This document shows positions 5,001 through 25,964 of a stretch of 27,129 nucleotides of DNA, piece by piece; positions within the stretch are counted from its first letter, which is position 1; every line of letters begins with the position of its first letter. The position numbers were made by a program, and so were the translations under genes. The notes under the pieces were generated by a model. That model had not been told where the DNA came from. It ran no database searches and was given only the letters and a program-made list of their open reading frames with translations. Source of the DNA: a virus. The DNA lies in IMG/VR virus record IMGVR_UViG_3300032401_000069, positions 1 through 27,129 of that record; one strand, given 5' to 3'.

Positions 5001-6365
5001 AACGGCCATACGAAAATCCTTTATTATAACACTCGGACTAAGGGCATGAAGGCTTAGGTCTTTTATTATTACACCGACAACTAATTCTTCATATACCCTA
5101 AAATTATTTAAAAGAACTGGAGCCGCTGGGGCAAAAACTCTGAAATCATCAATTTGAACAGGCGTGGCTACATAAAATCTATTATCTTGAATTATTACAG
5201 GTGGGGGAACGGCCTTCACTCGAAGGTCATTCATCATGACCCCAACTTTGATCGCATTTAAACGATGATTTTGAATTACTATAGGTGGGGAAACGGCTTT
5301 GATTCTAAAATCTTGAAGTGTCACTCCAATTTGCGGAGCATCTACTCGAAAATTATTTAACATTATTCCCACAATAGGGGAATTGATTCTAAAATTTTGA
5401 ATTGATACAGGTGGGAGAACTGCTTTGATTCTAAAATCTTGAAGGATTACTGATTTAGAAGGGGTTCCACTAGAAGGCTGTTGCCCTGTGACTCTTAAAG
5501 AAGAAATCCTACTTGCGTTTGTTGGTACTGCCCCACCTGACCCTGCACTAATTGAAACTCTAAAATATTTATAACCAATGCTAGGAATAGGAAGTACATA
5601 TTGTTTTACATAAATAACATTTGACCAAGTAATGCCTGTTTGCGTATCTAGTGTTTCCCAAATAAGTTTATCATTAGACCCCTGAAATTCCCAATCAAGT
5701 GGGGCATTGTCAGAGGCCGAATTATAACTTGTTCCTAGTGTGTAAGATGCGACCGAAATTTCTTCATTTAAAAAAATCTGTAGCCACATAGGATAAGAAC
5801 CATTAAATCCTCTCCAAATTGATGATGAACTTGATTGGTTATTATCAAAGGCTTCCCAAGGCGGTGAATCACTTTGATTACTGCTCGCTGAGGCAATAAA
5901 TGGAACAGGAGCAGTATTAGAGAGCATGTTAGGGGGGTAAATATCTCCTTCACCGCCTATGAAGTAAGTAAGTCCAACAAGAGGGAATGAATTAATCCCA
6001 GTATTAGAAATCCTCCAATAGTTATATGCAGTTCCCGGTGAATTACAATTAAAACCGTAAGTAAAATTTGAAGCGAATGTAACAGTTCTTGAATCAACTA
6101 AATTCCAATCAGTTCCATTTGAGCTTCCCTCTAATTTAAAATTAAATGTCCCTGTCGTAACTCCGGCTTGTATTTCATAATAGGTAACATCATTTGGAGT
6201 TGGAAATTGAAGCTGTAGCCACACACCTGTGGTTAGAGTATATCCTGATTCAGTTGTCCTGTTAAATTCTTGCCAAGCTGTAGCCGAAGAATTACTAGAG
6301 GTAACAATATACCCACTAGGAAGGGTGTTTGATGTCATTAGTGGAGTTACATTCTGTAAGGCCAT
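2082..6365 (-). CDS. Giant modular discoidin/LamG tail protein, 1427 aa
   Basis: This is a probable receptor-binding or fibre protein built from modules. Discoidin (F5/8 type C)-like domains lie at about 1-145, 146-300, 531-680, 695-800 (degenerate) and 911-1055. Each has an N-terminal MTSNTxPSGY-like or related start, an AF(D/N) motif, 'WYFQGSxDG'-like strands and a YFR/YYR end. Residues 306-501 form fourteen short repeats. A LamG/concanavalin-like jelly roll lies at about 1060-1240. The last about 190 residues resemble the end of the 1101-aa tail protein (WPANxSAD ... GSGV ... GIINRGF). It lacks the tailspike-like N-terminal domain of its two paralogous neighbours, so it must attach to the virion in another way. 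The ATG at 6365 has AGGAG nine bases upstream. Discoidin and LamG folds commonly bind glycans; the target here is unknown. It is the last virion gene before the lysis cluster. Confidence 0.85.
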   Translation of the reverse strand: MALQNVTPLMTSNTLPSGYIVTSSNSSATAWQEFNRTTESGYTLTTGVWLQLQFPTPNDVTYYEIQAGVTTGTFNFKLEGSSNGTDWNLVDSRTVTFASNFTYGFNCNSPGTAYNYWRISNTGINSFPLVGLTYFIGGEGDIYPPNMLSNTAPVPFIASASSNQSDSPPWEAFDNNQSSSSSIWRGFNGSYPMWLQIFLNEEISVASYTLGTSYNSASDNAPLDWEFQGSNDKLIWETLDTQTGITWSNVIYVKQYVLPIPSIGYKYFRVSISAGSGGAVPTNASRISSLRVTGQQPSSGTPSKSVILQDFRIKAVLPPVSIQNFRINSPIVGIMLNNFRVDAPQIGVTLQDFRIKAVSPPIVIQNHRLNAIKVGVMMNDLRVKAVPPPVIIQDNRFYVATPVQIDDFRVFAPAAPVLLNNFRVYEELVVGVIIKDLSLHALSPSVIIKDFRMAVAIGVIIDDMRFSSPPPPINIDDFRMIEANLDGVYVTNLRFNRTIENHLLSKTFPVAGFGIYEGNLNHALPYSTYQAMTSHTTPAPLIASASSEYSGGSYPAWKAFNYVNNAHTDCWLSLSGQPMPQWVQLNLKSSSFVISYAITTANEATSRVSNPRDWYFQGSYDGFNFVTIDTQVNQTALSQNVRTVYTIPEANRRAFSCYRLYITANNGGTYVDIGKLELLNNENPVPNHLFPSRVVLDKKMETVWTGSTTTPLTFFTEKAQPIKSYSITSTLDSNPKTFSLEGSIDGVTFSPIDYQQDTTGWQGGVTKVFTLLSSTQPFKYFKFDWLDNYNTTGEVQIAEIDFFKEKIRLAYYESVKPSFHAFAAGFNDVGTYNILLEGPSKTFIDLFEGNTFVESKFRSNGSVAISGKYRIPWIIGDEATLTLDENLFLPGTPIFWNGQPELFTSTNETPVMTSNTTPSGYVTSASSDNSGTSPAWYAFDNSGLTYWRPSSGQQAAGYLQIQLPTPTLIKAVTITLPQDPTLYTPKNFRFRGSNDGAVWTVLSNVIGKLLWVNYTATYYFLENIVPYSYYRLDVDATNVGTTSHFGIQDLKFYSIVGNTPTEILDQYGNKGVVTGVVGVVDPITYAGFPVLKLEDGANISFARSVGFNKNAFTLECKFSPLTASNSGATSIFSGALAGYNFNVDYNYSNVGFDLYLSSTGTSWDISLGGNHFSYQCNDGIWYHIKFSYDGFIYRLEVNGIVGIMVPSTARISIFNNIQMGREASGRGGYFFDFRYFPICDDPAKDYLIPFDQMLRFNPQTNLSYLGIDKNIAYTNQTSRWVETIAFPIAEINKTNGNLLVDTEYAYNGITVVDLTDLQQATGTPDFFKVYHNFGVSQAFEELLVMPDNRSTLFELYDSVRMTSIGMISGSASWSGERIGKTLYRNYIGIKWPANDSADYGAIYSGSGVVQNISGTFLRIRGIINRGF
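4863..5450 (-). repeat. Fourteen tandem 12-15-residue 'DFR' repeats (coding)
   Basis: Residues 306-501 of the 1427-aa protein consist of fourteen uninterrupted units of 12-15 residues. The consensus is hydrophobic-x-hydrophobic-(Q/N/D/K)-(D/N)-(F/L)-R-hydrophobic, followed by a short Ala/Pro-rich turn. Examples are VILQDFRIKAVLPP, GVMMNDLRVKAVPPP and VQIDDFRVFAPAAP. Units with and without a leading Gly tend to alternate. Some units keep near-identical DNA (for example at about 5289-5320 and 5418-5445), which points to expansion by duplication. The alternating hydrophobic pattern suggests one beta-strand per unit stacked into a fibre or solenoid; this is an inference. Confidence 0.85.
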
Positions 6366-6390
6366 CTCTAAAAACTCCTATCTTAAAAGA

Positions 6391-6858
6391 TTACGGAGTC
6401 CCAGGGATTGAGCTTTCCAACAAATAAATCCTAAAATATCTATAGGCCACAGAAGGCGCACCTAAAGTAAATGTTTGAGTTGTTTGCCCAGCACCCCAAG
6501 TAACATTTGGCTGAGCATCAACCGCTGTCCAAGCTAAATTGTTTGCCGAGCCTTCTAAAATAAAAGATTTCGGAGCAGCCATATTTTGAGCAGCATCGTT
6601 TGTTGTGGTAATAGTGTAAGAGGTAATGGATTTTGGAGTTGAGAGATCAATTGAAAGCCAATCACCCGGAGTAAATTCAGCCGCCGCTTGCCAGCCTGTT
6701 GTATTACTAGAGTCGAAAGCCAAATAAGCGTTTGCATTGTTTTGGCTTGCAGCCGCTACATAGGGCGAAGGGACTGTATTGGAACTCATATTTGGTGGAT
6801 AAGTTACTGTAGCTTGAAGAAATCCACCAAGAGAAAAAGCTTTAGAAAGAAAATTCAT
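6391..6858 (-). CDS. Free-standing discoidin-domain protein, 155 aa
   Basis: After about 20 N-terminal residues (MNFLSKAFSLGGFLQATV) the whole protein is a single discoidin (F5/8 type C)-like domain. It shows PPNMSSNTVPSPYVAAAS, then AYLAFDSSNTTGW, GDWLSIDLSTPKSITSYTI, APKSFILEGS and AYRYFRIYLL, in the order seen in the neighbours. It is most like the C-terminal domain of the 857-aa tail protein just upstream; both even end in Gly-x-Pro. It therefore looks like a duplicated copy of that domain that lacks the inserted module. AAGGAG precedes the ATG. It lies between two large tail proteins, so it may be a small adhesin, a fibre tip or an accessory of the 1427-aa protein. The N-terminal segment could be its attachment point. 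Confidence 0.8.
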   Translation of the reverse strand: MNFLSKAFSLGGFLQATVTYPPNMSSNTVPSPYVAAASQNNANAYLAFDSSNTTGWQAAAEFTPGDWLSIDLSTPKSITSYTITTTNDAAQNMAAPKSFILEGSANNLAWTAVDAQPNVTWGAGQTTQTFTLGAPSVAYRYFRIYLLESSIPGTP

Positions 6859-6877
6859 ATATTACTCCTTATTTAAA

Positions 6878-9451
6878 TTATGGAACTCCGGTTGATGACA
6901 CTAAGTAAAGTCTAAAATACCTATATGGACTAGATACGCTTGAAAGCAAAAAGTTTTTTGTTGATTCTCCGTTGGCCCAAGATACATTAACCTGGGAGTC
7001 AATATCTTCCCAATTAAGATCGTCATTAGAGCCTTGAATAATAAAATCTTTTGGGGCGTTTAATCCATTATCAGGGTCAACGACTGAGGAAATATCGTAG
7101 TCGCTAATTGTAATGGCCGAACCCATGTCAATACTTAACCAATCTCCCATGATGAATATTTTATCGGGATACCATCCGGTATTTGTATAACCATCGAAAG
7201 CCAAATATGGGTCAGCTTGTGAAGGGCCAACTGGAATAGCTTGGGAATTTGTTGTTTTAGTATAAGGCTTAACATTCACACCTTCTGTTAATTGGATTCC
7301 AGAAATTAAAATTTCATTTGCAAGGTTGTTGTAATAAGGGCCAAAGCCAATATAATTTCTTAATAAATCAACTAATCCATCGTAGGTAAAATCCCAATTT
7401 ACTCTAAACCAACCGTCCCCTAAAACACTAGAAGATGATTCTCCTATTGAAAAATTTGTGCTATTCCCACCTGAGTTGCTGTATCCAACTATGTTGAAAA
7501 ACCTATTGCAGCCTGTATCCGCTTGAGTTGGAACGTCCGTATTGCAGCAAAACCCTTGATAATCAGATCCTGATATAAGTTTTACATAAGCAGAAAGATT
7601 ATAAGTCCCCCCAGCTTTAAGAGTGAATGGCTGCCCCAATACTGGACGATCATAACCTCCAAGTGTAGTTGTATCCATTGTACGAATCATAAATGCCGGA
7701 AGTCCATTTGGAGCAACTTCAATCGTTGAAGATACCAAACATTTATAAGCTGACCAAATTGGATTCAGTAAATCTTCTGACCACAATAATAAATTTTCCC
7801 CACCAGAATCATAACTCCTGTTTGCACTCGCCACATAAGGTGAGGGCAAAATATTGGAAGTCATATTTGGGGGAGAGCTATCTACAACGGTTATAACAGT
7901 TGATTCCGTGCCAAAGGTTGGTGTTATGCTTTCTTCTCCGTCCACTAAAAAATCAGCATCATTTTCAAATTCATAAAGAGCGAGGTTCGCAATTTGGGCC
8001 AAGGAACTTGCCCCGGAAATTGCAATAATAAAAATTCTAAAATTCGTGTAGGGCAAAGGATAAGTTTGTAAATAAAAAGTTCGGGTTCCACCTAAAGGCC
8101 AGCCGATCTGATTTTCTTGATAATCAAGATTAGTCCAACTGGAGCCATCATTAGAGCCTTGAAGATACCAGGTAGCAGGGTAGCCTTGATCGCTGTCGGC
8201 CCTTCTTGTGATGGAATAGGCCCTAACTCTTTTCTCTCCTGGTATTAAAATTGCAAGCCAAGAATTTGCCGAAGCATATAGGGCCGTACTCCAAGAAACT
8301 GTAGTTTCGTTGCTATCAAATGCATGGAATGGCTGGGAGGAAGCATCAAAGGCAGTTGAAGCCGTTGCCAAATAACCAGAAGGTGAAGTGTTGGAATCCA
8401 TTACCGGGACAACGTCTTTTAAAATAGGAATTTTAATTATATTTGGTTTTCCATTAGAATCAGCGTCCCCCGAAACAACTACATTCCTTTGTATAGGTGG
8501 GGCCTGTAATGAAATATCGGCTGTATTGCTTAAAAGAGGAAAAGCAATGGCCTGACCATCTTCATTCAAAATAACTTGGACAATATCACCAGCAAAAACT
8601 CTCAAATCCTCATCCCTCGGTGTTAGTATTGGAGGAATGACATTTCTTGTGTAGGTAATTACAGCATCTTCTTTGAAAAATAAATATTTTGTGGCCCCCG
8701 GTTGAGTATCACTTTCACTTCCAAAACTAGAAATTTCCCCAACCCCTGAAATTTCATGAAAGTTTCCGTCAACTGTCCAAATGGACATTATGGGAGCTAC
8801 AATAAAGTCTTGGCCTCTTTTATAATAAACTGACCCTCCAAGAAACATCGGATATGAAGTATCTTGCGAAGAAATAACTCCATATCTAACAGAATTAATT
8901 CTACCAATTAGAACCAATCCACGGTCTAAATCAAAAGTTATTCTAGTAACCGGGTCTGGTGAAGGACTGATTAAGGTGACATCTACAGCCCAACCGTAAT
9001 AATCCTGATTAGTAGATAAGCGAAGCCGATTATATTTTTTAATTTTTTGGGTAAAGTCCCCGATAATGTCTACAAATCCAAGTCCTGTCCTTATAACTTC
9101 GCTTGTAGGAATCCACTCTCTGATTGAAGCGAGGGAGTTTGCCCCTCCTTGAGTGAAGTCACCCACTCCTGATATTCCATAATAGGCCTGAATTAAGTTT
9201 CCTTCTTTGTCATAAAAAAAGAAATCATAGGAAACTTGCCACGGCAGCCAAATGGCCAAAGGAGCATGACCCAGAGAATCCATGTAAATTGGACTAGACC
9301 ATGCGGCCAATCCATCTTTGTCTTTATAGATTTTTACAGGATTTCCAACTGAATCACTAACAATTATTTTTCCCCCAACGGCTATTCTCTCTAAAAGAGT
9401 TTTGAATTGAGGAATCCCAAAAGGAGAAATAAAATTTATTAAAAATTCCAT
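6878..9451 (-). CDS. Tail protein: tailspike-like N-terminus, discoidin domains, nested CBM, 857 aa
   Basis: Residues 1-100 resemble the head-binding N-terminus found in P22-like tailspikes (GGKIIVSDSVGNPV ... DGLAAWSSPIYMDSLGHA). Residues about 110-325 match a second domain shared with the 1101-aa neighbour, for example GEISSFGSESDTQPGATKYL. A discoidin-like domain covers about 350-495. A second one starts near 530 but is interrupted at about 552-730 by a carbohydrate-binding-module-like domain (NLLLWSEDLLNPIWSAYK ... GIQLTEGVNVKPYTKT) and resumes to the C-terminus. Its start overlaps the stop of the 1101-aa gene as TAATG, with AAAGGG seven bases upstream. It probably binds the virion by its N-terminus and host glycans by the rest. 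No catalytic beta-helix (endoglycosidase) region is evident. Confidence 0.85.
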   Translation of the reverse strand: MEFLINFISPFGIPQFKTLLERIAVGGKIIVSDSVGNPVKIYKDKDGLAAWSSPIYMDSLGHAPLAIWLPWQVSYDFFFYDKEGNLIQAYYGISGVGDFTQGGANSLASIREWIPTSEVIRTGLGFVDIIGDFTQKIKKYNRLRLSTNQDYYGWAVDVTLISPSPDPVTRITFDLDRGLVLIGRINSVRYGVISSQDTSYPMFLGGSVYYKRGQDFIVAPIMSIWTVDGNFHEISGVGEISSFGSESDTQPGATKYLFFKEDAVITYTRNVIPPILTPRDEDLRVFAGDIVQVILNEDGQAIAFPLLSNTADISLQAPPIQRNVVVSGDADSNGKPNIIKIPILKDVVPVMDSNTSPSGYLATASTAFDASSQPFHAFDSNETTVSWSTALYASANSWLAILIPGEKRVRAYSITRRADSDQGYPATWYLQGSNDGSSWTNLDYQENQIGWPLGGTRTFYLQTYPLPYTNFRIFIIAISGASSLAQIANLALYEFENDADFLVDGEESITPTFGTESTVITVVDSSPPNMTSNILPSPYVASANRSYDSGGENLLLWSEDLLNPIWSAYKCLVSSTIEVAPNGLPAFMIRTMDTTTLGGYDRPVLGQPFTLKAGGTYNLSAYVKLISGSDYQGFCCNTDVPTQADTGCNRFFNIVGYSNSGGNSTNFSIGESSSSVLGDGWFRVNWDFTYDGLVDLLRNYIGFGPYYNNLANEILISGIQLTEGVNVKPYTKTTNSQAIPVGPSQADPYLAFDGYTNTGWYPDKIFIMGDWLSIDMGSAITISDYDISSVVDPDNGLNAPKDFIIQGSNDDLNWEDIDSQVNVSWANGESTKNFLLSSVSSPYRYFRLYLVSSTGVP

Positions 9452-12400
9452 TAAAATGCCCTTTCAATAATTCCAGAGAGATTTATGGCCCCGGAGGTTA
9501 TAATTGCACTAACACCTGACCCTCCATAAGCATTTAAAGTGTCAGCACTAACATTTGCTGGCCATCTTAATCTATAAAGGGTTGAAGTAATCATAACTCC
9601 AACTGGAATCCCACTAAAAACATTTGTCCCACTAACCATTCCAGTAGAATCAATCGGAATAATAGATTGATTGTCATAAGGGGAGGCAGCGGTTGGAGAA
9701 TTAACATTTAATTCAGGGTCAATTAGATCGCACCCAATATTATGAGGAATGTCAACCCAAGAATCAACTGTCGGGTCAAAAGTTGACCATGCAATTTGTT
9801 TTCTCCCATTGTAAGCGTAGGTTGTAGGGGTAACTGTGTAAGAGGTAGAGGAAAAGCTCGCAGCCTCTCCCAAACATACCATTTGTACGTCTGTAAAAGT
9901 GCCATCCTCTTCTTTTTCATATCCATTCATTTCATTGATATTGAAAATCCAAGGCTTCACATAGGGGACAGCGGCTGTGGGGACAGTATCTAAGACTTGA
10001 CCATTAAAATCATATTTAGCTGGCCTAAATCTGAAATCATCAATAAATCCACAAGCGGTTGAGGCTTCGGCTGCGTATGCCCCAATATTAAGTGAACTAA
10101 TTTGTGTCATTTTTAGCGAGGAAACTACGTTAATATCTTGAGTGCCATCAACCCAAACTTGATACCTTCGACTTGAAAATGCTATTTTGATATAATACCA
10201 AGTTCCAATAGCAAAATTAGCTTTAATCCCTGGTATATTGCTCGCAACGTCCCAGGTTGACCCATTTGAAGAAATATAAAGCGAAATTTTTGAGGCAGTA
10301 CGGCCATAAGAAAGCATCAAAGAAAAATCAGGAGTGCCGCCTATTAAATCTACATTTCCAGCAAGTGATGTTGGCTTCCACCAAAAATCAATTGTCCATG
10401 CATCCCTATTTATTCCCATACTTCTAGGGATTTTTAATTTAGAACCAGCGGAGCCAAATAAAATAGAGCCAGTTCCAAATTTAGGGGCCGTGGAAGAATT
10501 TGTTACGGTTCCAACCGTGGTCATTCCAGTATTTCCATAAGAATCAATAAAAAAGCTAGTCCCATTTGCTCCGTCACCCCTTAAAAGATTTGGAATAACA
10601 GGCAAATAATTTGGCTGATATAATCCATAAACAGGAGGAAACTCTTTATGCTCGTAGGTTATTTCGCCTGAAAGAACGTCACGCCTTAAATAAATATAAT
10701 TTACACAGGCCGTTCCGATTGGGACGTATTTGTTTTCCATTGGAAGGGCCATTGTGTAATCAAGTTGACCTTCACTATCAAATCCATTGGCTATTGAGGC
10801 TATTGTCTGTGTTTCGGATAAATTTAATTCAATTGTCCCATATTCGGCCGATGCCGTTATTGTATTAAAAGAACACTCCCCAATTAAAATTTTAGCTCCG
10901 CCGCCGTTTGAAATTGTCAAAACTCGGTAGTATAAATAAGGAGTGTTGTTTATAAAGTCATAGGACTTTGATTCGTTTATATTCCAAATAGGGCCATTTC
11001 CCCAACTGCCTAAAATAGTCCAATCGGTTCCATTTAAAGAACCTTGAATATTAAAATTAATTGGCATTTCAGTAGGGTTTGTTGAAGCCGCTGTTAAAAT
11101 AACTCGATTAATAGTTACTTGGTAAGCAAACTGCATTTGAAGCCATTCATTTGCAGCCGTGGCCGCTTCCCAATAAGAAGTTGTCGATCCAGAGAAAGCC
11201 TTATAAGCGTTGTTTGCTCCTTGCTCTGAGCTTGCCGAAACAATATATCCATTCTCAGATGCGGCGTTCATTGTTGGGGATGTTTTAGTGTAATAAACAG
11301 ACTTAATTAAATTCTCAGTAATGGCGGTTACAGTAGGGGAAACAATATCAGCTTCTTTATAACCATAAACATCAAGCTCTCTGATATACCAATCTTCGTG
11401 AGATACGTTATCAGCCGATACATAAACACCTTTGCATAAAGTGAGAGGAATATTAATTGTTTGCATCGAAATGCTGCCATTGCCACTATAATACATTTGA
11501 ATTAAATTGCCGCTAAGGTCTTTGATGTAAAATCTTACGTTCTCCGCTTGGATAGCTGTGTAATTATCAATCCATGAAAATTTATTAATCCACCAATTTT
11601 CTGGGAAATCAAGGCCAAAATATTGGTTATCTCTTAATCTAAATTCGGTTCCGGAATTATGATCGAAAATAATATATGGATTGCCCATAAAGGAACTATT
11701 TGAATATGCTACATAACCGCTTGTTGAGTTTGAGGTCATTGGGAAAGGTGGAACTTCATAATAAATCGCTGTGGTCGTGGAACCTATGAAAACTTCTGCT
11801 GGCCCAATTAAAACAGTTTGCCTCTTACTTAGTGGGGCAGAATAACTTGGAATTAAAATTGGTTTATTGGACATTAAGTGAGCAACATAATTTACTCCAT
11901 TCGCCCCTGCGAAAACTTCAATAATATCACCGGAATTTAAAGCAAGATCAACTCCTTTCGGAGTTTTAATCGTAGAGCCATTTTTTAATACGGCCCCACC
12001 GTCAACAAATCTTAAATATTTTGTGGCCCCTTCTTGATAAGAAGCTCCCATTGAAATAACATCACCTGTGCCAATTACATTGGCATAATTACCAGAAGTG
12101 TCCCATAGTTCAATCGTCCCAGCGGTTATAGTTAAATCAACTCCTTTCTTATACCATTGGGCCATTGACAGAAAGTTTGGATATGACTGAGGGGCATAAG
12201 AAAGAATCCCATAGTCAACTGTTAAAAGGGTGTCTGTTATTGCGTCCCCATCGTCCATTAACAACTTGATTAAAGTTTTATCAGTTCCAACATCAAATGC
12301 TGATTCAATTGTTGACCCATAAACATAACTGTCTAAAATGCCCAGCCTTACTCTTCGTCCAAAATGAAAAACATCGGTTACGTCACCATTTAGAAAAAAT

Positions 12401-12756
12401 TCATTTTCATCAATAAATGTGGGAGCACCACCTAAAACCCATTCTTTCCCAATATATTTTCCGATCTCAATTGTATCATTTACCCCAACAATATCGTCAT
12501 AAGTCCACATTAAATTATCGTTTGAATCGCTAACGACAAATTTATATGTTACTCCCTCAGATAACCAAATTGGGTCGTTGGCCATTCCATAATTATTTAA
12601 AATAATTGGATTGGTTTGCGTAACCAAACCACCTACGTCACCATAAGTTTCTTCTAAAGTAGTAGTTCCGGCCCGATAAGAAGTTATTTTACCTCCTACT
12701 AAAAGCTTTCCGTCCACTCCATAGATTTGATTGTTAAGCACCGGAGATATATTCAA
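9451..12756 (-). CDS. Tail protein: tailspike-like N-terminus, discoidin and LamG domains, 1101 aa
   Basis: The N-terminal ~95 residues match the tailspike head-binding pattern: DGKLLVGGKITSYRAGTTT, then NPIILNNYGMA, then a VSDSNDNLMW strand. A shared hinge-like domain follows (about 100-325), then discoidin-like domains at about 335-470 and 495-640. A beta-rich linker, a LamG-like jelly roll (about 725-915) and a C-terminal domain that recurs in the 1427-aa protein (TLYRLRWPANVSAD ... GIIERAF) complete it. The start is a TTG at 12756, supported by GAGAGG six bases upstream; no ATG lies near. It follows the last ejection protein gene by 10 bases. It is the first of the tail adhesin genes and the best candidate for the main tailspike position, though it lacks an obvious enzymatic domain. 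Confidence 0.85.
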   Translation of the reverse strand: MNISPVLNNQIYGVDGKLLVGGKITSYRAGTTTLEETYGDVGGLVTQTNPIILNNYGMANDPIWLSEGVTYKFVVSDSNDNLMWTYDDIVGVNDTIEIGKYIGKEWVLGGAPTFIDENEFFLNGDVTDVFHFGRRVRLGILDSYVYGSTIESAFDVGTDKTLIKLLMDDGDAITDTLLTVDYGILSYAPQSYPNFLSMAQWYKKGVDLTITAGTIELWDTSGNYANVIGTGDVISMGASYQEGATKYLRFVDGGAVLKNGSTIKTPKGVDLALNSGDIIEVFAGANGVNYVAHLMSNKPILIPSYSAPLSKRQTVLIGPAEVFIGSTTTAIYYEVPPFPMTSNSTSGYVAYSNSSFMGNPYIIFDHNSGTEFRLRDNQYFGLDFPENWWINKFSWIDNYTAIQAENVRFYIKDLSGNLIQMYYSGNGSISMQTINIPLTLCKGVYVSADNVSHEDWYIRELDVYGYKEADIVSPTVTAITENLIKSVYYTKTSPTMNAASENGYIVSASSEQGANNAYKAFSGSTTSYWEAATAANEWLQMQFAYQVTINRVILTAASTNPTEMPINFNIQGSLNGTDWTILGSWGNGPIWNINESKSYDFINNTPYLYYRVLTISNGGGAKILIGECSFNTITASAEYGTIELNLSETQTIASIANGFDSEGQLDYTMALPMENKYVPIGTACVNYIYLRRDVLSGEITYEHKEFPPVYGLYQPNYLPVIPNLLRGDGANGTSFFIDSYGNTGMTTVGTVTNSSTAPKFGTGSILFGSAGSKLKIPRSMGINRDAWTIDFWWKPTSLAGNVDLIGGTPDFSLMLSYGRTASKISLYISSNGSTWDVASNIPGIKANFAIGTWYYIKIAFSSRRYQVWVDGTQDINVVSSLKMTQISSLNIGAYAAEASTACGFIDDFRFRPAKYDFNGQVLDTVPTAAVPYVKPWIFNINEMNGYEKEEDGTFTDVQMVCLGEAASFSSTSYTVTPTTYAYNGRKQIAWSTFDPTVDSWVDIPHNIGCDLIDPELNVNSPTAASPYDNQSIIPIDSTGMVSGTNVFSGIPVGVMITSTLYRLRWPANVSADTLNAYGGSGVSAIITSGAINLSGIIERAF

Positions 12757-17662: not shown

Positions 17663-19087
17663 TTATCGTAGGCTTATTAAAGCACTAATAATTTTTCTTT
17701 TTACAATGTCAGTAATTCTAAGCTTTACGCAAAAGTCTGTAGCATACCCCAGCCGCCTCCAAACCAATCTAATTAAGTAATCTCCAAGCCTTCCAATTGA
17801 ACCCTGAAGCTCCGGTGTCCAACTATATCCACCGTCTTTTGAATAACTGAGCATTACTACTGGATTATCATAAAATTTAGCCAACTCACCTTGACCTACT
17901 TCCATTTTAAATTGAAGTTCGCTCAAGGAAAACTGATCTTCATCTAAAGAAATGTGCCTACCAACAAATTCTAGGTCTTGGAAGAAATCTCCGTCTTTAA
18001 TTAATTTATCATTCATTCTAAAGATCGTTTCACCAAACCTTGAAGTGAAATATTGCTCACCCAAACTGTAGACCCCAAATCCAAATATGTGGCTCCCAAT
18101 ACCCCTGGACGATCTTTCACCCCAAAGTCCAATATTGGCATCGTAGAAAAAAGTTCTATTTGAGCCAATAAAAGTTATTTGATAAATAGGCGAGCCATTG
18201 GCACTATAGCCACAGGCATAAGTTAAAGGAGCATTTGCCATTTCTTTAATTATGAAAGCCATTTGGCTATTTGTTATATTTTGTATGCTTTGACCTTCTA
18301 GTTGGTAAAAATTTTGCCCCTCGGTTTGACTTATACCTAGAAAGATAATTGAGTTTCCTAAAGTAACGATGCTTCTTTGTGAAAGAAGCCCAACATTCAT
18401 GACCCCACCTGACATTAAGGCGTAGGGAAAATCAGGGCCTCCGGTGTTATACCATGTTTCGACTGTTTCATTCCCCATCAAATAAAAAACTCCGAAGCCT
18501 CCATTTGCCAAGGACACAATATTATCAGGGAAAGTTTCAGCCGTTGCAAAATCTAGCCCATCCCAAACCAACCCATCAAATATTTTTGAGCCATGAAACT
18601 GACCTGTCCCTAAATTATTTACCAAAAATCTTCCGGTGTTAAAAATTACACTTGTTGGATTTTTAGGGAAAAACTCGCTAGTTATTTTGGTAACAGTTTG
18701 CTCAGTTCCTTCTGGTGGGGTTAGCTCAACAATATAACCAGCAAGGCCATCAACAATCATTAATTGAACACCACTATCGGCCATATAAATTGGAAGGGTT
18801 TCTGATTCGATGTTGCCGATTAATTTGACCTCACCACTTCGCTCAACTTTTAAAACCCTGGTTCCTTGGACAACATAAAGGCCCTTCCCATTAGAAACAG
18901 AATGAAAGCCTCTTGCCTTCCCTCCGATTTTAGCAAAAACCTCGGAGCCTGGAAAACCAACAAGAACTCTTTCTTTTTCTAAGGTAGGGTCGATAATATA
19001 ATGACAATTCATGTGCCGCATGGATGAAGCTAAAGGAGAAATTGACTTTATATCGTGTCCGAATAAATTTATTTCTTTTAATGGCAT
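17663..19087 (-). CDS. Packaged-DNA stabilisation / tail hub protein (P22 gp10-like), 474 aa
   Basis: Length (474 aa; P22 gp10 is about 472) and gene position match P22 gp10, the protein that extends the neck below gp4 and holds the packaged genome. The body is beta-rich with repeated blade-like segments. The C-terminal region has the family's recognisable pattern: MLSYSKDGGYSWTPE, then GSIGRLGDYLIRLVWRRLGY, then a VKLRITD strand (about residues 405-460). The ATG has AAGGGG upstream and follows the gp4-like gene by two bases. It is co-transcribed with the gp4-like gene and probably depends on read-through of the terminator after the coat gene. Confidence 0.85.
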   Translation of the reverse strand: MPLKEINLFGHDIKSISPLASSMRHMNCHYIIDPTLEKERVLVGFPGSEVFAKIGGKARGFHSVSNGKGLYVVQGTRVLKVERSGEVKLIGNIESETLPIYMADSGVQLMIVDGLAGYIVELTPPEGTEQTVTKITSEFFPKNPTSVIFNTGRFLVNNLGTGQFHGSKIFDGLVWDGLDFATAETFPDNIVSLANGGFGVFYLMGNETVETWYNTGGPDFPYALMSGGVMNVGLLSQRSIVTLGNSIIFLGISQTEGQNFYQLEGQSIQNITNSQMAFIIKEMANAPLTYACGYSANGSPIYQITFIGSNRTFFYDANIGLWGERSSRGIGSHIFGFGVYSLGEQYFTSRFGETIFRMNDKLIKDGDFFQDLEFVGRHISLDEDQFSLSELQFKMEVGQGELAKFYDNPVVMLSYSKDGGYSWTPELQGSIGRLGDYLIRLVWRRLGYATDFCVKLRITDIVKRKIISALISLR

Positions 19088-19089
19088 TA

Positions 19090-19785
19090 TTACCCCTTAG
19101 AAATATTATAGCCACGATTCTGAATATCCGTTAGAAATGGGATTTCAGTTCGCAGGGTTGTGGGGCGAATATTCATCCGCTTTACATTTGCCAATGATTC
19201 CACAGCAACACGCTCTACCATTACGGGAATTTGTAAACCAAATTCAGGAGCAAGCTCAACTGCCAAATTAAATGATAATGCCCTTTCATAAGATGGAGGC
19301 AAATCTATTTCATCGTCTGAGCTTTTTATATAGGTTAATTTTTTGGCTATTAAAAATTGAACTTCAAACGCACCGTTTGGAATTGGAAGAAAACTCACTT
19401 TTCCCAAGGGAAAGCTTGGGCTATAATTACAATATGCCATAACTCCAGTTTGGGCTGAGTTTACCAGGCTTAAAAAAGTTTCATCATTCACCATTGCGAT
19501 TTCATTCAACTCATTCGCATATATATAATAGGCCTTTTCTATTTTATCAGGCCTCTCACTATCGAAGTCACCTGTTGGCCCATAGGTATAAGAAGGCTGA
19601 CCTGGAGTCAACGTAAATTTTTCTAATTTCTTAACGTAAATTGTAAGGGCATCTACTGACCATGAAGAGAGAAGTTGATTCATGGCCAAAAGACAATCGG
19701 AAGTTTCTTCGGCGGTTGGTACTTCTCCCACACCCAAAGCACCTATGAGTCGCATAGATCGGCGAATTATCTCAATAGCTTTCAT
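19090..19785 (-). CDS. Head-completion / tail accessory protein (P22 gp4-like), 231 aa
   Basis: This resembles P22 gp4, which binds the portal after packaging and begins tail assembly. Family-like features are IIRRSMRLIGALGVGEVPTAEE at the N-terminus, the helix CLLAMNQLLSSWSVD, a Pro/Gly/Tyr turn (TPGQPSYTYGPTG), and LPPSYERALSFNLAVELAPEFG in the C-terminal half. P22 gp4 is shorter (about 166 aa). I place the start at the ATG at 19785, which has GGAGG five bases upstream, rather than at the in-frame TTG at 19797. The Shine-Dalgarno lies immediately after the T-tract of the coat terminator, so translation can only occur on read-through transcripts unless another promoter exists. P22 gp4 has muramidase activity; I cannot point to such a site here. 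Confidence 0.8.
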   Translation of the reverse strand: MKAIEIIRRSMRLIGALGVGEVPTAEETSDCLLAMNQLLSSWSVDALTIYVKKLEKFTLTPGQPSYTYGPTGDFDSERPDKIEKAYYIYANELNEIAMVNDETFLSLVNSAQTGVMAYCNYSPSFPLGKVSFLPIPNGAFEVQFLIAKKLTYIKSSDDEIDLPPSYERALSFNLAVELAPEFGLQIPVMVERVAVESLANVKRMNIRPTTLRTEIPFLTDIQNRGYNISKG

Positions 19786-19795
19786 AGGAGCCTCC

Positions 19796-19824
19796 AAAAA
19801 AAGGGAGTGAGCTTCCCCACTCCC
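19796..19824 (-). terminator. Rho-independent terminator after the coat gene
   Basis: On the minus strand a perfect 7-bp stem (GGGAGTG / CACTCCC) with an 8-base loop is followed directly by seven T. It begins 13 bases after the coat stop codon and ends at the ribosome binding site of the gp4-like gene. Only this strand has the T-tract, which matches the direction of the operon. Confidence 0.9.
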
Positions 19825-19837
19825 TGATTAAAAATCC

Positions 19838-21046
19838 TTAAGAAGCAATTCTACAAGCTAGTTGAGGTCGAAGTGTTTTATAACCGTAAAGCACATCAAG
19901 TCTGCAAGGAAATTTGTCTGAGTTTATATCAAACGCTTGGACAATTCTCATGCTTAGACCTTGCCATACTTCCCTGGCCTTAAAATGAACTCCGTCTGGC
20001 ATAATTAAGTCAGCCGATGCAAAGGTAAATGCATTTTTTTGGAATCCAATTCCTTGTGCATAAAGGGCGTTGACCCCGGCTGCAAAAGCCACAGGAGCAC
20101 TAGTTCCTGGCATTGCCACTACGTTTTTTAATCCTGTGTTTGTCACATAAAGGGCTGGCCAAAATGGGACGTTGACCGAGGTTGATGTAGCAGTTACATC
20201 GGCGGTAACAACAAGTTTTAAAAGATCGGTTGTCGGTTGTTTTGTTTGAGGGTGACACGCATACACATTGGCCAATGTAAAGGTTTGACCTTTTTTAAAT
20301 GTGGTTCCGTTTACAACGGTTCCAGTAAACACCGCTGTAGTCGCACCTTCAGCAAGAAGGCCAGCACCTAACGTAACACCTGTTACCATGCTTCCGATTT
20401 GCTGTGAAGGAAGTAGGGTATTGGTATAAAAATCAAAACCAGCCGTTTTTCCCATGCTCCCATTTGTGTATTGCTCAGAAATTGCGCTTGAAGATTGGAA
20501 AAGACCCTTTAAGGCGTTTACCAAATTAACTTCCATTAAAGGAGCAATTATCATTCTTCTTTGATCGTCCATTGGGGCCAAATTTATGTCCATTACCCCT
20601 TTTGCCGAAAGATAAGTCAAAAGATCGGTTGGAATTATCCCTGGTGAACCTACTTGGAAGGGAACATCTGCCATCATACTTAGAGCATCCCTTTCCATTT
20701 CAGCCGACAAAACTGACATAGCTGGATTTAAAATTCTTTCAGTAAAGTCGTCCATAGACAAAGTTAATTCTGCGCTTGAAAAGGTAGTGTCTACGCCTTT
20801 TTGAGAAGTAATCGGTAATGTTAAAGATTGTTCAACTGTGTCCTGTGCGGCTAGTGTGGCCCCACTTCTAACAACATACTGGTTTGGTAATCTTATTCGC
20901 AAAGTATCACCAATTTTTGCGCCTGATTTCGCAAAGGAATCATCGTATTGTCTATTGATTCCAGAAATAAAATTTAATTTTTGCTCAAGAATCATGAGGG
21001 CTTTTCTGGTAATTTGGTTTGGCGTTAAAAGTACATTTCCGGCCAT
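19838..21046 (-). CDS. Major capsid (coat) protein, P22 gp5-like, 402 aa
   Basis: Length (402; P22 coat is 430), position after the scaffold, and sequence pattern fit the P22 coat family with an HK97-type fold. The N-terminus MAGNVLLTPNQITRKALMIL begins an N-arm helix. The segment DSFAKSGAKIGDTLRIRLPN is followed by DTVEQSLTLPITSQKGVDTTFSSAELTLSMDDF, both typical of the group. The middle (about 225-320) is Thr/Val/Gly-rich and may correspond to the inserted domain. The C-terminus ends in RLDVLYGYKTLRPQLACRI. AAGGAG lies nine bases before the ATG. The gene is bracketed by its own promoter and a terminator, and it follows a GroES-like gene. It forms the icosahedral shell around the scaffold. 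Confidence 0.92.
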   Translation of the reverse strand: MAGNVLLTPNQITRKALMILEQKLNFISGINRQYDDSFAKSGAKIGDTLRIRLPNQYVVRSGATLAAQDTVEQSLTLPITSQKGVDTTFSSAELTLSMDDFTERILNPAMSVLSAEMERDALSMMADVPFQVGSPGIIPTDLLTYLSAKGVMDINLAPMDDQRRMIIAPLMEVNLVNALKGLFQSSSAISEQYTNGSMGKTAGFDFYTNTLLPSQQIGSMVTGVTLGAGLLAEGATTAVFTGTVVNGTTFKKGQTFTLANVYACHPQTKQPTTDLLKLVVTADVTATSTSVNVPFWPALYVTNTGLKNVVAMPGTSAPVAFAAGVNALYAQGIGFQKNAFTFASADLIMPDGVHFKAREVWQGLSMRIVQAFDINSDKFPCRLDVLYGYKTLRPQLACRIAS

Positions 21047-21122
21047 AAAATATTTCTCCTTAAAAAGTTAAAGTTAATGTTAATGTAGGACACTTTTCAG
21101 GATTTTGAGGCTTCCAGTAGGC

Positions 21123-21141
21123 CCCTTGTTGTGAGCAAGGG
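21123..21141 (-). other. Leader hairpin in the coat mRNA
   Basis: CCCTTG (21123-21128) and CAAGGG (21136-21141) form a 6-bp stem with a 7-base loop in the untranslated leader of the coat transcript. On the minus strand no T-run follows, so it is not a terminator for the operon. On the plus strand four T follow, which would make only a weak terminator. It may stabilise or regulate the leader. Confidence 0.45.
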
Positions 21142-21154
21142 TTTTCACAGATTC

Positions 21155-21168
21155 GACATTTTAATGTC
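21155..21168. promoter_or_regulatory. Inverted repeat at the coat transcription start
   Basis: GACATTTTAATGTC is a perfect inverted repeat with 6-bp arms and a 2-base centre, placed about 8 bases after the -10 of the coat promoter. It could be an operator for a dimeric regulator overlapping +1. Alternatively it could make a 5'-terminal RNA hairpin (5-bp stem, TAAA loop) that protects the mRNA. The sequence does not decide between these. Confidence 0.5.
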
Positions 21169-21175
21169 TAGCGAT

Positions 21176-21204
21176 ATAATAAAATAATTATTTAATCGAG
21201 TCAA
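21176..21204 (-). promoter_or_regulatory. Strong sigma70-type promoter of the coat gene
   Basis: On the minus strand TTGACT (21204-21199) and TATTAT (21181-21176) are separated by exactly 17 AT-rich bases. These match five of six consensus bases each with ideal spacing. It starts seven bases after the GroES-like stop codon and leads into a leader of about 120 bases ending at the coat ATG. Use of host sigma70-type polymerase is assumed. Confidence 0.75.
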
Positions 21205-21210
21205 GTTTGC

Positions 21211-21504
21211 TTAAATTAATCCTTCCCCAACCGCTAAAATATCACGTTCACACATAATTAAGTAATTTTCATCTTTCAACCTGACTTTGATTCCAGCATA
21301 TTTTCCAAACCAAATAGTTTGGCCAACTTCAACATCAATTGGCTCCCTTCCAGTAAAGTTTTTATTATAAAGGCCAGGCCCCTTCATAATTAACTCACCA
21401 CAAAGGGGCCTTTCCTCTTCATTTTGAAAGAGTAAAATGCCCCCATCGGTAAAAGTTTGAGTAAATGGCTTTACTAATATTCTATCTTTTAAAAGCGTAA
21501 TCAT
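21211..21504 (-). CDS. GroES-like co-chaperonin (Cpn10 family), 97 aa
   Basis: This is a phage version of the GroES ring subunit, which caps a GroEL chamber in which proteins fold. It has exactly the length of E. coli GroES (97 aa). It keeps the family pattern: LLKDRILVKP at the N-terminus, then a mobile loop with the hydrophobic GGILL (residues 21-25) that in GroES (GGIVL) contacts GroEL. A GEL strand follows, then IDVEVGQTIWFGKYAGIKV and the C-terminal DENYLIMCERDILAV. Its ATG overlaps the scaffold stop as ATGA, so it is translated with the scaffold. The coat gene follows after that gene's own promoter. No GroEL gene is in the window, so it probably works with host GroEL, most likely on the coat protein (inference). 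T4 gp31 is a known phage co-chaperonin needed for capsid folding. Confidence 0.93.
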   Translation of the reverse strand: MITLLKDRILVKPFTQTFTDGGILLFQNEEERPLCGELIMKGPGLYNKNFTGREPIDVEVGQTIWFGKYAGIKVRLKDENYLIMCERDILAVGEGLI

Positions 21505-22298
21505 TTAATTTTCCCTATTTTTTTTAACCTTGCTTTTTCCTTCGCCATCCATACCTCAATGGAATCTTTATCAGAAGGGCCATCATCCATTTTTACGCCG
21601 CCCTTAACTGTGTTTAATGGCTCAGGTAGGGATTTTGTTGATTTTCCCAATACTATTTTATCTCCACTCGATAACTTCGCCTCAATTTTTCCAAGTGCTA
21701 AAACTTGTTGGTAAGGAGTCATGTTGTTCAGCTTCGCTAATTCGGCTGGATTTTTTGCCAAATAATAAGCAACGTCTGGGCCATTTTCTGATTCAATCAA
21801 AGCATCTTGAATAATGGTAGTTGTTTCAATTAATGGGTCATTGATAACATCATAAAAATCAGGATTTTTTTCAAGAAACGCAGCCGCTTTTGTATTGAAG
21901 GATTGAATTTTAGTTTCGGCCATTCTCTGGGCAGCACTCTGAGCATTTTTATGGTCAATAATGGCCATTTTTTCGGACATTTTCTTTTCAACTAGATAAT
22001 CAGTATATTCTTCAATTGTTGCAAAAGTTGTCGGGTCTTTTACTGGTTCTTCTTTCTCTTTTCCTTGGTTTTTTTCAATAATGCTTAAAAGACGATCTCT
22101 TTCCGTTTCAGCCTTTCTTCTTTCATAAGTTAATTGATCGAACCTTTTTTGTATTGCAGTTTTATCTGCCTTTGCTTCGGCATCGGCGGCATCTTTAGTA
22201 ATTTGCTCAGGTGTTTTTTCTTCCTCTTTGACAATTTCTGTTTCATTTTCTATTACCTCAGTTTCAGTTCCAGTTCCAGTTCCTTCATCTAATACCAT
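21501..22298 (-). CDS. Capsid scaffolding protein, 265 aa
   Basis: This is an acidic and then basic, highly helical protein between the portal and the coat genes, the standard scaffold position. The N-terminus is Gly/Thr/Glu-rich and disordered (TGTGTETEVIENETEIV). Helices with many Lys and Glu cover about 30-150, a middle segment reads AAFLEKNPDFYDVINDP, and the C-terminus is a basic helix (WMAKEKARLKKIGKIK). In P22 the basic C-terminal helix-turn-helix of the scaffold binds coat, and the basic end here would suit that. AAAGGAG precedes the ATG. It is coupled by ATGA to the GroES-like gene, which ties co-chaperonin supply to procapsid assembly. Confidence 0.85.
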   Translation of the reverse strand: MVLDEGTGTGTETEVIENETEIVKEEEKTPEQITKDAADAEAKADKTAIQKRFDQLTYERRKAETERDRLLSIIEKNQGKEKEEPVKDPTTFATIEEYTDYLVEKKMSEKMAIIDHKNAQSAAQRMAETKIQSFNTKAAAFLEKNPDFYDVINDPLIETTTIIQDALIESENGPDVAYYLAKNPAELAKLNNMTPYQQVLALGKIEAKLSSGDKIVLGKSTKSLPEPLNTVKGGVKMDDGPSDKDSIEVWMAKEKARLKKIGKIK

Positions 22299-22309: not shown

Positions 22310-24550
22310 TTAAAAATTTTCTACAAACTCATTAATTTTAAATTCATCGTCATTTTCGTCCTCAATTTTATCCTCAACCTCTTCGATTATTGGCTTTTCA
22401 CCAACGCCTACTTCGGCCAACAATTGCCCTCTCATAATATTAGCGAATGAACCCAACATTTTATCGGCCATTTCAGGCGAATATCCTTGTTGAATCAATA
22501 ATGATTTGTAACTTCCAATATTCTTCACAAACTCTTCTTGTACTTCACCTTTAGAAGTTAGCTTGGCCGATTTAACTTTTCCGGCCTCCTGAATCATCGC
22601 AATTTCTTTTTCAGTATCAAGTTTGGCCTGTGTTCTTAAATTCTCAGCATCCTCAGACATTTTTGTAGTTTCAAGCTTTGTTTGAGAATCTACCTTGGCT
22701 ATTTCCATTTTTTCAACAAGGCCAGATTTTAGTTTTTCATTTTCGGCCATTAACATTTCATTTTGTTGTTTTAATTGTTGTGCTTCAGGAGGTAACTCAG
22801 GATTTGGGTTTGTAATTTCCGGTGGGATTGTCCTAAAAATTCTTTGTGCTAATTCTTGGGAGCCGGGAAAATCCATAGCACCTACCATAATGTCACCCCC
22901 AATTTTTACCAATTCAGGGGAAGTCTGAGCTAATAGAAACATTGATTTGCTGGTTTCTTGTCGTTTTGTAGCACTCGATGGCCCTGCGGCCATGACAACA
23001 TCGTAGGAACCAATTGTTGGATTAATTTCTCTTCCAATCATTTCTTGATATTGATTAAGTTTATCTCTTACTACCCCGGCCATTTCTGGATTAATGAAAA
23101 CTTGCTTTAGAACCCCATCTTCGCCACGAATTTTCATAACCTTTGGGGCGTTATAAATTTTAGGAATAAGATCAACTATAATTCTGCCAGTTTGCTCAAT
23201 AGCATTTGCCGCCGAATCAAAAAAGTGAAATTGACTTTGCTCACCTTGTACTTTTCTGGCATCAATGGCAACGCCTGTCCTTTCATTACTAGATTGTCCC
23301 AATGAAGATTGGTAAAGGCCCATAGCTTGCTGAATATTTGAGGTCATGCTGGCATCAACCGCACCCCATCCGTCTGGAACTCCAGGCATAGGCATCCGCA
23401 TAGGCGGTGGGGCTGCGGTTCCATTAACTGTTACAGGGTCATATTCTAATACTGAAAAGTTTCTTTGATTGGCCTGTGACCATTGCTCTCTGAAATTTTC
23501 TATTTGTCCTGAAGCCGCAACAAAAGGTGACTTAGGAGCAAGTGCAACCATTTCAACAAAAGCAGACGAAGCATAATTGACCATTCTTTGAGCATCAACC
23601 GCCGGGTAAATCATTCCCTGGTAAAAAATTCCTTCGTTTGCTATTCGGTGTTCGTCCCCAACTACTCTAACAATTGGTAAATATTTTGATGGCCATTCTC
23701 CTTTCTCAATAATTTTACCGGAAGTTAATTTACACCACTTAACAATTGTTTTTTTAGTTTTTCTTGTTTTGATAAAACTAGAGCGATCTGATTGTTCGTT
23801 AATTTCTGAAACAATTCCACTCGCATCTATTCCAATCTCAACTTCGATTTTTTCTTTGTAGAAGTATTCGGCTATTCTTACCCGATCTTCTGAAATCCAC
23901 GCAGACGAAACACCTTCGCTTCCGGACGAAAACTCTCCGGCATCCGCCCCATATTGTTCTTCAAAGGCTTGCCTGTCCATGTCGTCAATAATAAAAACAT
24001 ACTCAGCATCCCTACCATCTGTATAATCTGCACTAGGGTCAAACCATACTGAAAACACATCGGGAATTTTTTTAATAAAAATTTCTTGAGTAAATGATGT
24101 TTCTGTTTCATAAGCTGTAATTACCCTCCAAAATCCTTCCCCTGCTTCTACAGTACATTGAAAGGCCCAATTATAAGCTTGGGAGGCGGTTGACTGGTTT
24201 TCTATTCTGCGAATAATGTCTTGGTAAACTTCAGCGACTTCAATATCGGCCCCACCGTCAACTGGCAAAACTTCAATTCCAGTTTTTTGTTGTCTAAAAT
24301 CATTCACTATTTGGTGGACATACTGCCCTAGTTTATCAACTGTCAGGCAAGGCCTTGCTCCGTCTGGGTCTTTTTCCCTGGAAGTTCTAACATTATCGGG
24401 CCATTGATCTAATGCTCTAAAATCTAAAGCTACCCTAGAGTTTTCCCGGCTTTGCCTAAAAGCAAGTTTGGAAATATTAAATCTTTTCATTGCTAGTGCT
24501 AAAATATCTTCGTCTTTTTTACTTTCTTTTGCGGTTTTGTTTTCTTCCAT
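22310..24550 (-). CDS. Portal protein, P22 gp1-like, 746 aa
   Basis: Length (746; P22 gp1 is 725) and pattern identify a P22-type portal, the dodecameric ring at the packaging vertex. Recognisable parts are ALDFRALDQWPDNVR, then GARPCLTVDKLGQYVHQIVN and DFRQQKTGIEVLPVDGGAD in the first 130 residues. KIPDVFSVWFDPSADYTDGRDAEY follows, then the stem region SLGQSSNERTGVAIDARK. The last ~150 residues are a long Lys/Glu/Gln coiled helix starting near PELPPEAQQLKQQNEML, corresponding to the C-terminal barrel that in P22 reaches into the capsid and senses fullness. AAGGAGAG precedes the ATG. It follows the large terminase, as in other P22-like phages. Confidence 0.93.
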   Translation of the reverse strand: MEENKTAKESKKDEDILALAMKRFNISKLAFRQSRENSRVALDFRALDQWPDNVRTSREKDPDGARPCLTVDKLGQYVHQIVNDFRQQKTGIEVLPVDGGADIEVAEVYQDIIRRIENQSTASQAYNWAFQCTVEAGEGFWRVITAYETETSFTQEIFIKKIPDVFSVWFDPSADYTDGRDAEYVFIIDDMDRQAFEEQYGADAGEFSSGSEGVSSAWISEDRVRIAEYFYKEKIEVEIGIDASGIVSEINEQSDRSSFIKTRKTKKTIVKWCKLTSGKIIEKGEWPSKYLPIVRVVGDEHRIANEGIFYQGMIYPAVDAQRMVNYASSAFVEMVALAPKSPFVAASGQIENFREQWSQANQRNFSVLEYDPVTVNGTAAPPPMRMPMPGVPDGWGAVDASMTSNIQQAMGLYQSSLGQSSNERTGVAIDARKVQGEQSQFHFFDSAANAIEQTGRIIVDLIPKIYNAPKVMKIRGEDGVLKQVFINPEMAGVVRDKLNQYQEMIGREINPTIGSYDVVMAAGPSSATKRQETSKSMFLLAQTSPELVKIGGDIMVGAMDFPGSQELAQRIFRTIPPEITNPNPELPPEAQQLKQQNEMLMAENEKLKSGLVEKMEIAKVDSQTKLETTKMSEDAENLRTQAKLDTEKEIAMIQEAGKVKSAKLTSKGEVQEEFVKNIGSYKSLLIQQGYSPEMADKMLGSFANIMRGQLLAEVGVGEKPIIEEVEDKIEDENDDEFKINEFVENF

Positions 24551-24572: not shown

Positions 24573-25964
24573 TTACCCCATCCAGCTTGAAGGTCTTGGA
24601 TAATTGTTTATTGGTTTGATTCTCATTCTTGGTTTTTCTTTTGAAAAGGTCAAGGTGAAAGCGTCCCCACCGTCCGGGCTTTCTAAGCCTCTTGCTTTCA
24701 TTTCATCTTTTGTTTCCACTCTTATTTTTCCATTTGATAAGACTTTGTATCTTGGCCCCGCTAACTCGGAAATCAAAACTTGATCTTCTGGAATGTCACA
24801 CGCTTTTTCATTAAACCAATCCCTAGCGGCAAACCAAAGTTCGTCCCTCATTTTAGGATATTTTTCATTCATTGACGACACTTCACAAGCGTTTATTCCC
24901 ACAACTGGTAATTCAAGCTCCTTAAGTCTATCAACTACCCCAGCACCAAGACCGACTACATCGACAACAATCTTTGATGGCTTTTTTTCTTTTTCCGTGT
25001 TGTCCCACTCCGTCTTAATAAGCCCAACCGTAGACATTAAATCTTTTTGCGCCCAATATTTTAATGGCTCAAGTAATTTTGGCCCTTGTCGTTTCGCTAG
25101 GGCCGTACGATTGAAGCCATACCTTGCAACGTCTACACCCCAAACAGTTTCCCCAAAACCTTCAATTCCCCGATTAACGGCTGCCTCTAAAACATCAAGG
25201 CCTATAATACAATCATCATTACTAACTGGAAATTCACCCAATACACGAATTTTGTAAATATTCGACTCAAGCCCATACTTCGCCATATCCTCGATATATT
25301 TCGGGTCAACTTGTGAGGAATCAAAACAAGAAACTGTGAAATTAGTCCACTTAGCTCTAAATCTATGAAAAGTGTCGAAGAAATATCCGCTAGTTCTAGT
25401 CGGGTTTGAAAAAAGAATTATCTTTGATTCAGCCGTGGACATGGAGCCTTCAATAACCTCGTAAACATTATTTGGAATACCAGAGGCCTCATCAATTAGA
25501 TAAAGGATATTCTTAGCGTGTTTTCCGGCCAACGACTCCGGCTGATCTCTTCTTGCAGTTCGGGCAATTCCGAAATTTTCTTTTGGGGCCTCTAGTAGTT
25601 GAATGGTATCTTCATTTTGGTGAAACAGGCTTGCAAAATTATATTTGGCCATTCTAAGCCACATTGATTTTTCTGCCCATAAAACATCATATAGCTGCGA
25701 AGCGGTGGGGGCAGTTGTAGGAACCTTCGCTGGTGTCCTAGTAGAAAGAAACCATAAAAGAATCCAACTCATTAAAGCAGATTTACCTGTGCCATGACCA
25801 CTTTTAACAGATATTCTTTGTTTATATGGTAATATTTCTAATACTTTTTTTTGCCAAATTTCTAACTTTAATTCAGGCCATAAGTCAGCAACAAACAGGT
25901 TTGGGCTGTCACGCCATTGAACTAATTTCTTTCTTAAATAATCTTGATCTGTTTGTAAATTCAA
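24573..25964 (-). CDS. terL: Terminase large subunit, 463 aa
   Basis: This is the DNA-packaging motor. In the ATPase domain the Walker A is SGHGTGKS (55-62), the Walker B is ILYLIDEAS (153-161, Asp158-Glu159) and the coupling motif is SNPT (186-189). In the nuclease domain the acidic residues are Asp278 in GVDVARYG, Asp335 in VVDVVGLG and Asp434 in GGDAF. The set is complete, so the enzyme should both translocate and cut DNA. The start is a TTG at 25964 overlapping the stop of the preceding small gene (TTGA). An in-frame TGA lies just upstream, so no longer start exists, and GGAG/GGAAAAG lies before it. P22 cuts by headful packaging; the mode here cannot be read from the sequence alone. Confidence 0.95.
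   Translation of the reverse strand: MNLQTDQDYLRKKLVQWRDSPNLFVADLWPELKLEIWQKKVLEILPYKQRISVKSGHGTGKSALMSWILLWFLSTRTPAKVPTTAPTASQLYDVLWAEKSMWLRMAKYNFASLFHQNEDTIQLLEAPKENFGIARTARRDQPESLAGKHAKNILYLIDEASGIPNNVYEVIEGSMSTAESKIILFSNPTRTSGYFFDTFHRFRAKWTNFTVSCFDSSQVDPKYIEDMAKYGLESNIYKIRVLGEFPVSNDDCIIGLDVLEAAVNRGIEGFGETVWGVDVARYGFNRTALAKRQGPKLLEPLKYWAQKDLMSTVGLIKTEWDNTEKEKKPSKIVVDVVGLGAGVVDRLKELELPVVGINACEVSSMNEKYPKMRDELWFAARDWFNEKACDIPEDQVLISELAGPRYKVLSNGKIRVETKDEMKARGLESPDGGDAFTLTFSKEKPRMRIKPINNYPRPSSWMG

Follow-up and report, generated by a model that had tools for sequence, protein, structure and literature searches.

Folding of the P22 coat protein is a textbook model of chaperonin-assisted capsid folding, and P22 itself relies on the machine of its host. 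In this machine the client is trapped in ATP-bound GroEL and a heptamer of GroES closes the chamber as its lid, and folding mutants of the P22 coat are GroEL/ES substrates. The DNA analysed here, hereafter the window, is the entire linear IMG/VR contig IMGVR_UViG_3300032401_000069 with a length of 27,129 bp. An initial annotation placed in it a GroES gene between the scaffold and coat genes of a P22-like phage, which raises the question whether the gene encodes a genuine GroES and what a phage would gain from its own lid at this position. According to our results the window is part of a P22-like phage genome carrying a genuine GroES gene, and the product probably acts as a lid on the host GroEL with the coat as main client.

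The GroES open reading frame occupies exactly positions 21211-21504 on the minus strand, with an ATG start and a TAA stop; the forward strand of this interval contains many stops. The product of 97 amino acids (11.0 kDa) matched the Pfam Cpn10 profile PF00166 with E=3.2e-18 and 66 bits (cut-off 21.1 bits) over residues 2-92 of 97 and profile positions 2-92 of 93. Further matches were obtained to PHROG 3188, 'co-chaperonin GroES' (1.4e-17), and in a phmmer search of the PDB to the Cpn10 of M. leprae (4e-15). These three matches indicate that the gene is not a chance ORF. A single-chain AlphaFold2 model, for which the alignment input consisted of 19 phage sequences, reached a pLDDT of 86.5 with the minimum in the mobile loop. 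Foldseek returned 33 matches to this model at E<=0.001. The Cpn10/GroES chains matched had TM values of about 0.7-0.9 and E-values down to 8.7e-08; they included proteins of Mycobacterium, Thermus, human and E. coli, some of them chains from GroEL complexes. The model thus predicts the GroES beta-barrel fold, and the assignment of the 97-aa product as GroES was confirmed. The mobile-loop motif GGILL was found as annotated at residues 21-25 (21430..21444, minus strand). The segment TDGGILL aligns with SAGGIVL and TAGGILL of bacterial GroES, with ILL as the counterpart of the IVL-type tripeptide, and by homology the loop would present the hydrophobic tripeptide that binds GroEL.

The protein is 36-44% identical to the GroES of Salmonella, Acinetobacter and Gastranaerophilales. 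A scan of viral contigs with this single protein recovered no relative, and a genome scan yielded one bacterial GroES, from Gastranaerophilales; its identity of 44% is too weak to name this group as host or donor. The Acinetobacter 'phage' and Salmonella matches were discarded, being groESL regions of bacteria that are listed as phage entries. Two entries of the phage collection, CAKLQH020000021.1 and AFYI01000007.1, are bacterial chromosome around groESL and mislead GroES searches of phage databases. CAKLQF020000019.1 and AGRM01000005.1 are probably of the same kind, and several unannotated 'phage' clones among these matches may also be bacterial. The GC content of the window gene (0.35, GC3 0.29) is the same as in the neighbouring genes, so that composition hints neither at a very recent acquisition of the gene nor at a chimeric assembly.

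The gene is embedded in a P22-like head cassette on the minus strand. In reading order, the cassette comprises the terminase large subunit (463 aa, 24573..25964; phrog_2 6e-44, phrog_5902 3.8e-55), the P22-like portal protein (746 aa, 22310..24550; PF16510 4.5e-150), the scaffolding protein (265 aa, 21501..22298; phrog_8865 1.2e-36 and tblastn matches to scaffolds of P22-like phages), GroES, the P22-fold major coat protein (402 aa, 43.2 kDa, 19838..21046; PF11651 3.6e-26, phrog_283 1.9e-65), a probable tail accessory or adaptor protein 3' of the coat (19090..19797) and a head-closure or packaged-DNA stabilisation protein (17663..19087; phrog_578 1.1e-67). The adaptor assignment is suggested by phrog_12985 (4.5e-48, unknown function), a weak head-tail adaptor match and annotated tail adaptors at the same position in relatives. 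The proposed P22-like morphogenetic operon was verified by the ordered portal, scaffold and coat matches.

The GroES start overlaps the scaffold stop in the sequence ATGA (21504-21501, minus strand), as the initial annotation had stated. This overlap permits translational coupling, but GroES has its own Shine-Dalgarno-like AGGGA (21512..21516, minus strand) within the end of the scaffold gene, and the annotated synthesis in proportion to scaffold went beyond what the junction indicates. The placement directly before the coat is correct in that the coat is the next gene, but a non-coding gap of 164 nt (21047..21210) separates the two and the coat has its own strong Shine-Dalgarno sequence, AAGGAG (21056-21061, minus strand). 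A promoter-like TTGACT-17-TATTAT in this gap (21204-21176, minus strand) is uninformative because the region is AT-rich and such matches are expected by chance; three promoter-like matches were found against 4.2 expected, and a coat promoter in the gap is not supported by them. An Rfam search gave no match.

Elsewhere in the window, a tRNA-Phe was predicted at 815-890 (minus strand) with the unusual anticodon AAA, GAA being the norm; it may be a genuine tRNA of the phage, a tRNA that was called wrongly or what is left of an attachment site. Three very long tail-fibre-like ORFs of 1427, 857 and 1101 aa lie at 2082-12756 (minus strand). They carry repeated 'MTSNTTPSGYVTSASS...AFD' modules, discoidin-like as read by eye, and are probably host-binding proteins.

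The pairing of a phage GroES with the host GroEL is already known biology from T4 gp31 and RB49 CocO, which stand in for GroES in capsid folding (PMC3012670, PMC9598537). Like these proteins, the window GroES is a phage lid for which no phage GroEL was found and for which the host GroEL would be the expected partner in capsid folding. The gp31 of T4 has a longer mobile loop and lacks the roof loops (PMC6318259), changes which are thought to aid the folding of the 56-kDa gp23 (PMC6318259, PMC3012670). In contrast to this long-looped and roofless lid, the window GroES has a loop and a roof of bacterial size. Its mobile-loop segment, counted from strand 1 to the conserved Gly, comprises 24 residues with gaps of at most one residue against bacterial GroES, and its roof segment comprises 15 residues, from which bacterial GroES deviate by no more than one or two residues in an alignment count. 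In the Foldseek search with the window model, gp31 was placed at rank 35 with 12% identity. A gp31-type enlargement of the cage was rejected, since the loop is not longer, the roof loops are present and the coat has 43.2 kDa in comparison to about 56 kDa for gp23; on size grounds, such a coat needs none of the changes of gp31. The window protein shares with bacterial GroES/Cpn10 the full-length family match, the beta-barrel, the GGILL-type loop and the normal roof, and differs in being phage-encoded, within a head operon and without an adjacent groEL.

One Cpn10 gene and no GroEL/Cpn60 gene were detected in the 27-kb record. The annotated lack of GroEL is therefore true of the record, but the record is probably an incomplete fragment, so that the absence of GroEL from the phage as a whole is likely, yet unproven. 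In comparison, Flavobacterium phage immuto encodes both GroES and GroEL, and phages EL, OBP and AR9 represent the opposite case with GroEL only. As the record contains no phage chamber, the host GroEL is the expected partner, and a hybrid of phage GroES and host GroEL would be the natural expectation from the gene content. In the course of infection, a late morphogenetic transcript would yield GroES together with the scaffold, the protein would assemble into a heptamer, and the heptamer would cap the host GroEL ring via the I-L-L mobile loop. While the late proteins of the phage are being made, the additional GroES may increase how much of them can be folded; it would do so because lids become more numerous or fit better, and not through a larger chamber, and the 43-kDa coat would be the likeliest main client. 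The late-operon site suggests that the lid is made alongside the structural proteins, among which the coat is the most abundant; to our knowledge, no other late client of a tailed phage comes close to the coat in amount. The full-length Cpn10 match, the GroES-like model, the GGILL loop and the cassette site with its ATGA overlap together favour a lid for host GroEL with reasonable, though not high, confidence, and we infer a role in coat folding. It is possible that GroES is limiting in this particular host.

The distribution of GroES among relatives bears on how specific this role is. In a PF00166 search of complete related P22-like phage records, GroES was present in 4 of 15 (PBR31, DSL-LC05, MW202520 and MW202674). 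Cpn10 was also present in 24 of 150 IMG/VR records retrieved on the basis of similarity in portal or coat (3, 17 and 4 from three sets); these records were the best-scoring loci and not a random sample, hence the rates are descriptive only. Gene order across the loci was mapped by profile searches. The usual site of GroES was between the terminase (TerL) and the portal, as seen in 20 of the 82 loci in which both flanking genes were seen, and in 20 of the 22 cases scored for overlap, GroES extended into the start of the portal gene. No GroES was found between portal and scaffold (0/77 informative loci), and a position between scaffold and coat was seen in the window alone (1/95 loci). The gene described as locked between scaffold and coat is so placed in the window, but this arrangement is rare and relatives use the portal side or a site upstream of TerL. 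The Cpn10 genes of phage DSL-LC05 (WJZ48174.1), Xanthomonas phage PBR31 (QIN95328.1), MW202674 (UOF80240.1) and MW202520 lie in or beside a P22 portal/scaffold/coat cassette as in the window, but between TerL and portal or upstream of TerL, whereas that of the window follows the scaffold. Unlike the window protein, the GroES of DSL-LC05 and MW202674 have a mobile loop without GGI.

The coats nearest to that of the window share 49-57% identity with it. Among the 50 records with these nearest coats, 15 of which were at least 28 kb long, none contained a detectable Cpn10, and GroES was found between scaffold and coat in none of the 27 informative loci from this closest-coat search, a few of which were common to the earlier set. 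The result for the 50 records indicates that coats of this type do not in general require such a gene. In addition, the GroES of relatives adjoins the portal or lies upstream of TerL and not next to the coat, so that position alone is no pointer to the coat. The proposal of a coat badly served by the host GroES could not be upheld, given a 43.2-kDa coat within normal GroEL/ES capacity, a lid with bacterial-size loop and roof, and the nearest coats without Cpn10. These observations leave room for a second explanation, in which the phage GroES is a general late folding booster that offsets a limiting or shut-off host GroES for many phage clients, such as coat, terminase and tail proteins, and in which the site between scaffold and coat is incidental. 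The ordinary bacterial design of the lid, the occurrence of the nearest coats without GroES and the varied sites in relatives (between TerL and portal, upstream of TerL, after the scaffold, and in one phage upstream of a Mu-like head gene) are consistent with it. Nearly all placements, however, are within or beside the head-assembly cassette rather than with the early genes, and the coat is, as far as we know, the top late client by abundance. We therefore consider such a booster possible, though clearly less probable than a lid serving mainly the coat. The Mu-like case is Roseobacter phage CRP-902 (L019:5476-5880), where GroES lies a few genes upstream of the major head gene in a non-P22-like module.

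The junction of scaffold and GroES was found once more, in IMGVR_UViG_3300032722_000482 (L061). This contig shows the order portal-scaffold-GroES with the same 4-nt ATGA overlap and stops before any coat. It differs by a GroES of 34% identity with a short roof, followed 3' inside the head operon by a tRNA-Thr (5781-5856) and a GIY-YIG-like ORF (about 5950-6448). HNH-like ORFs, read as such by eye, lie between scaffold and coat in three further loci (L139:8881-9420, L151:1815-2330 and L155:9456-9971), which suggests that several phages tolerate insertions here. In the portal tree, the window and L061 are located within one 7-row set with long branches; their scaffold-GroES order may or may not go back to a common ancestor. 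In the GroES tree, computed from an alignment of 96 columns, the window protein is placed among bacterial GroES, outside a supported 22-row clade which holds the TerL-portal proteins. In approximately unbiased (AU) tests, all five alternative groupings remained acceptable (p 0.25-0.33), so that a separate acquisition of the window GroES appears as the better tree and is not an established fact. It is doubtful, although conceivable, that the window and L061 belong to a P22-like lineage in which GroES translation became coupled directly to that of the scaffold; the lid would then be co-dosed with scaffold and coat, and the coat passed from GroEL to the scaffold in a single assembly line.

A lid acting as competitor or decoy, which diverts or partly blocks host GroEL and thereby lowers the folding of host or defence proteins, would have a precedent in T4 gp31, which is described as a GroEL competitor (PMC6318259), and a late phage lid would do likewise; we regard this as quite unlikely, as the late-operon site suits assembly better than host takeover, the neighbours include no defence genes and the lid shows no sign of a dominant-negative change. 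Least probable is a captured passenger gene of little or no benefit, for despite the rare position, the HNH-like ORFs at the same spot and the tRNA-Thr and GIY-YIG-like ORF of L061, the Cpn10 is intact and complete with a conserved loop, the ATGA overlap is tight and repeated in the diverged L061, and GroES recurs across P22-like phages.

The GroES proteins encoded between TerL and portal form a group of their own design, with a loop segment of 19-23 residues without GGI and, in about half of them, a roof of about 5 residues. Examples are L051:9681-9929, L054:9681-9929, L060:1534-1782, L178:2873-3121, L096:6700-6945, L148:3303-3536 and L007:11731-11979 (DSL-LC05), among others; the genes usually overlap the portal start by 4-8 nt. 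Pfam assigned those tested to Cpn10 all the same (3e-7 to 1e-22), and an AlphaFold2 model of such a protein showed a GroES-like barrel (pLDDT 82.7). Many of these portal-linked proteins lack the roof hairpin, as in gp31, but their loop is shorter where that of gp31 is longer. The roof-reduced forms may be a more interesting lid than that of the window.

The window GroES is a known kind of phage lid, unusually placed between scaffold and coat. Searches of the open literature turned up no earlier description of three features, which on this basis are new: GroES recurs in P22-like head operons, it usually overlaps the portal, and in the window it stands in a rare order after the scaffold. The survey identifies GroES as a recurrent accessory of these operons, mostly overlapping the portal start, which indicates that it was repeatedly kept with head genes. 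With some members carrying their own lid and close relatives without one, the P22-like group offers a natural comparison for finding out under which conditions a capsid depends on a GroES of its own.
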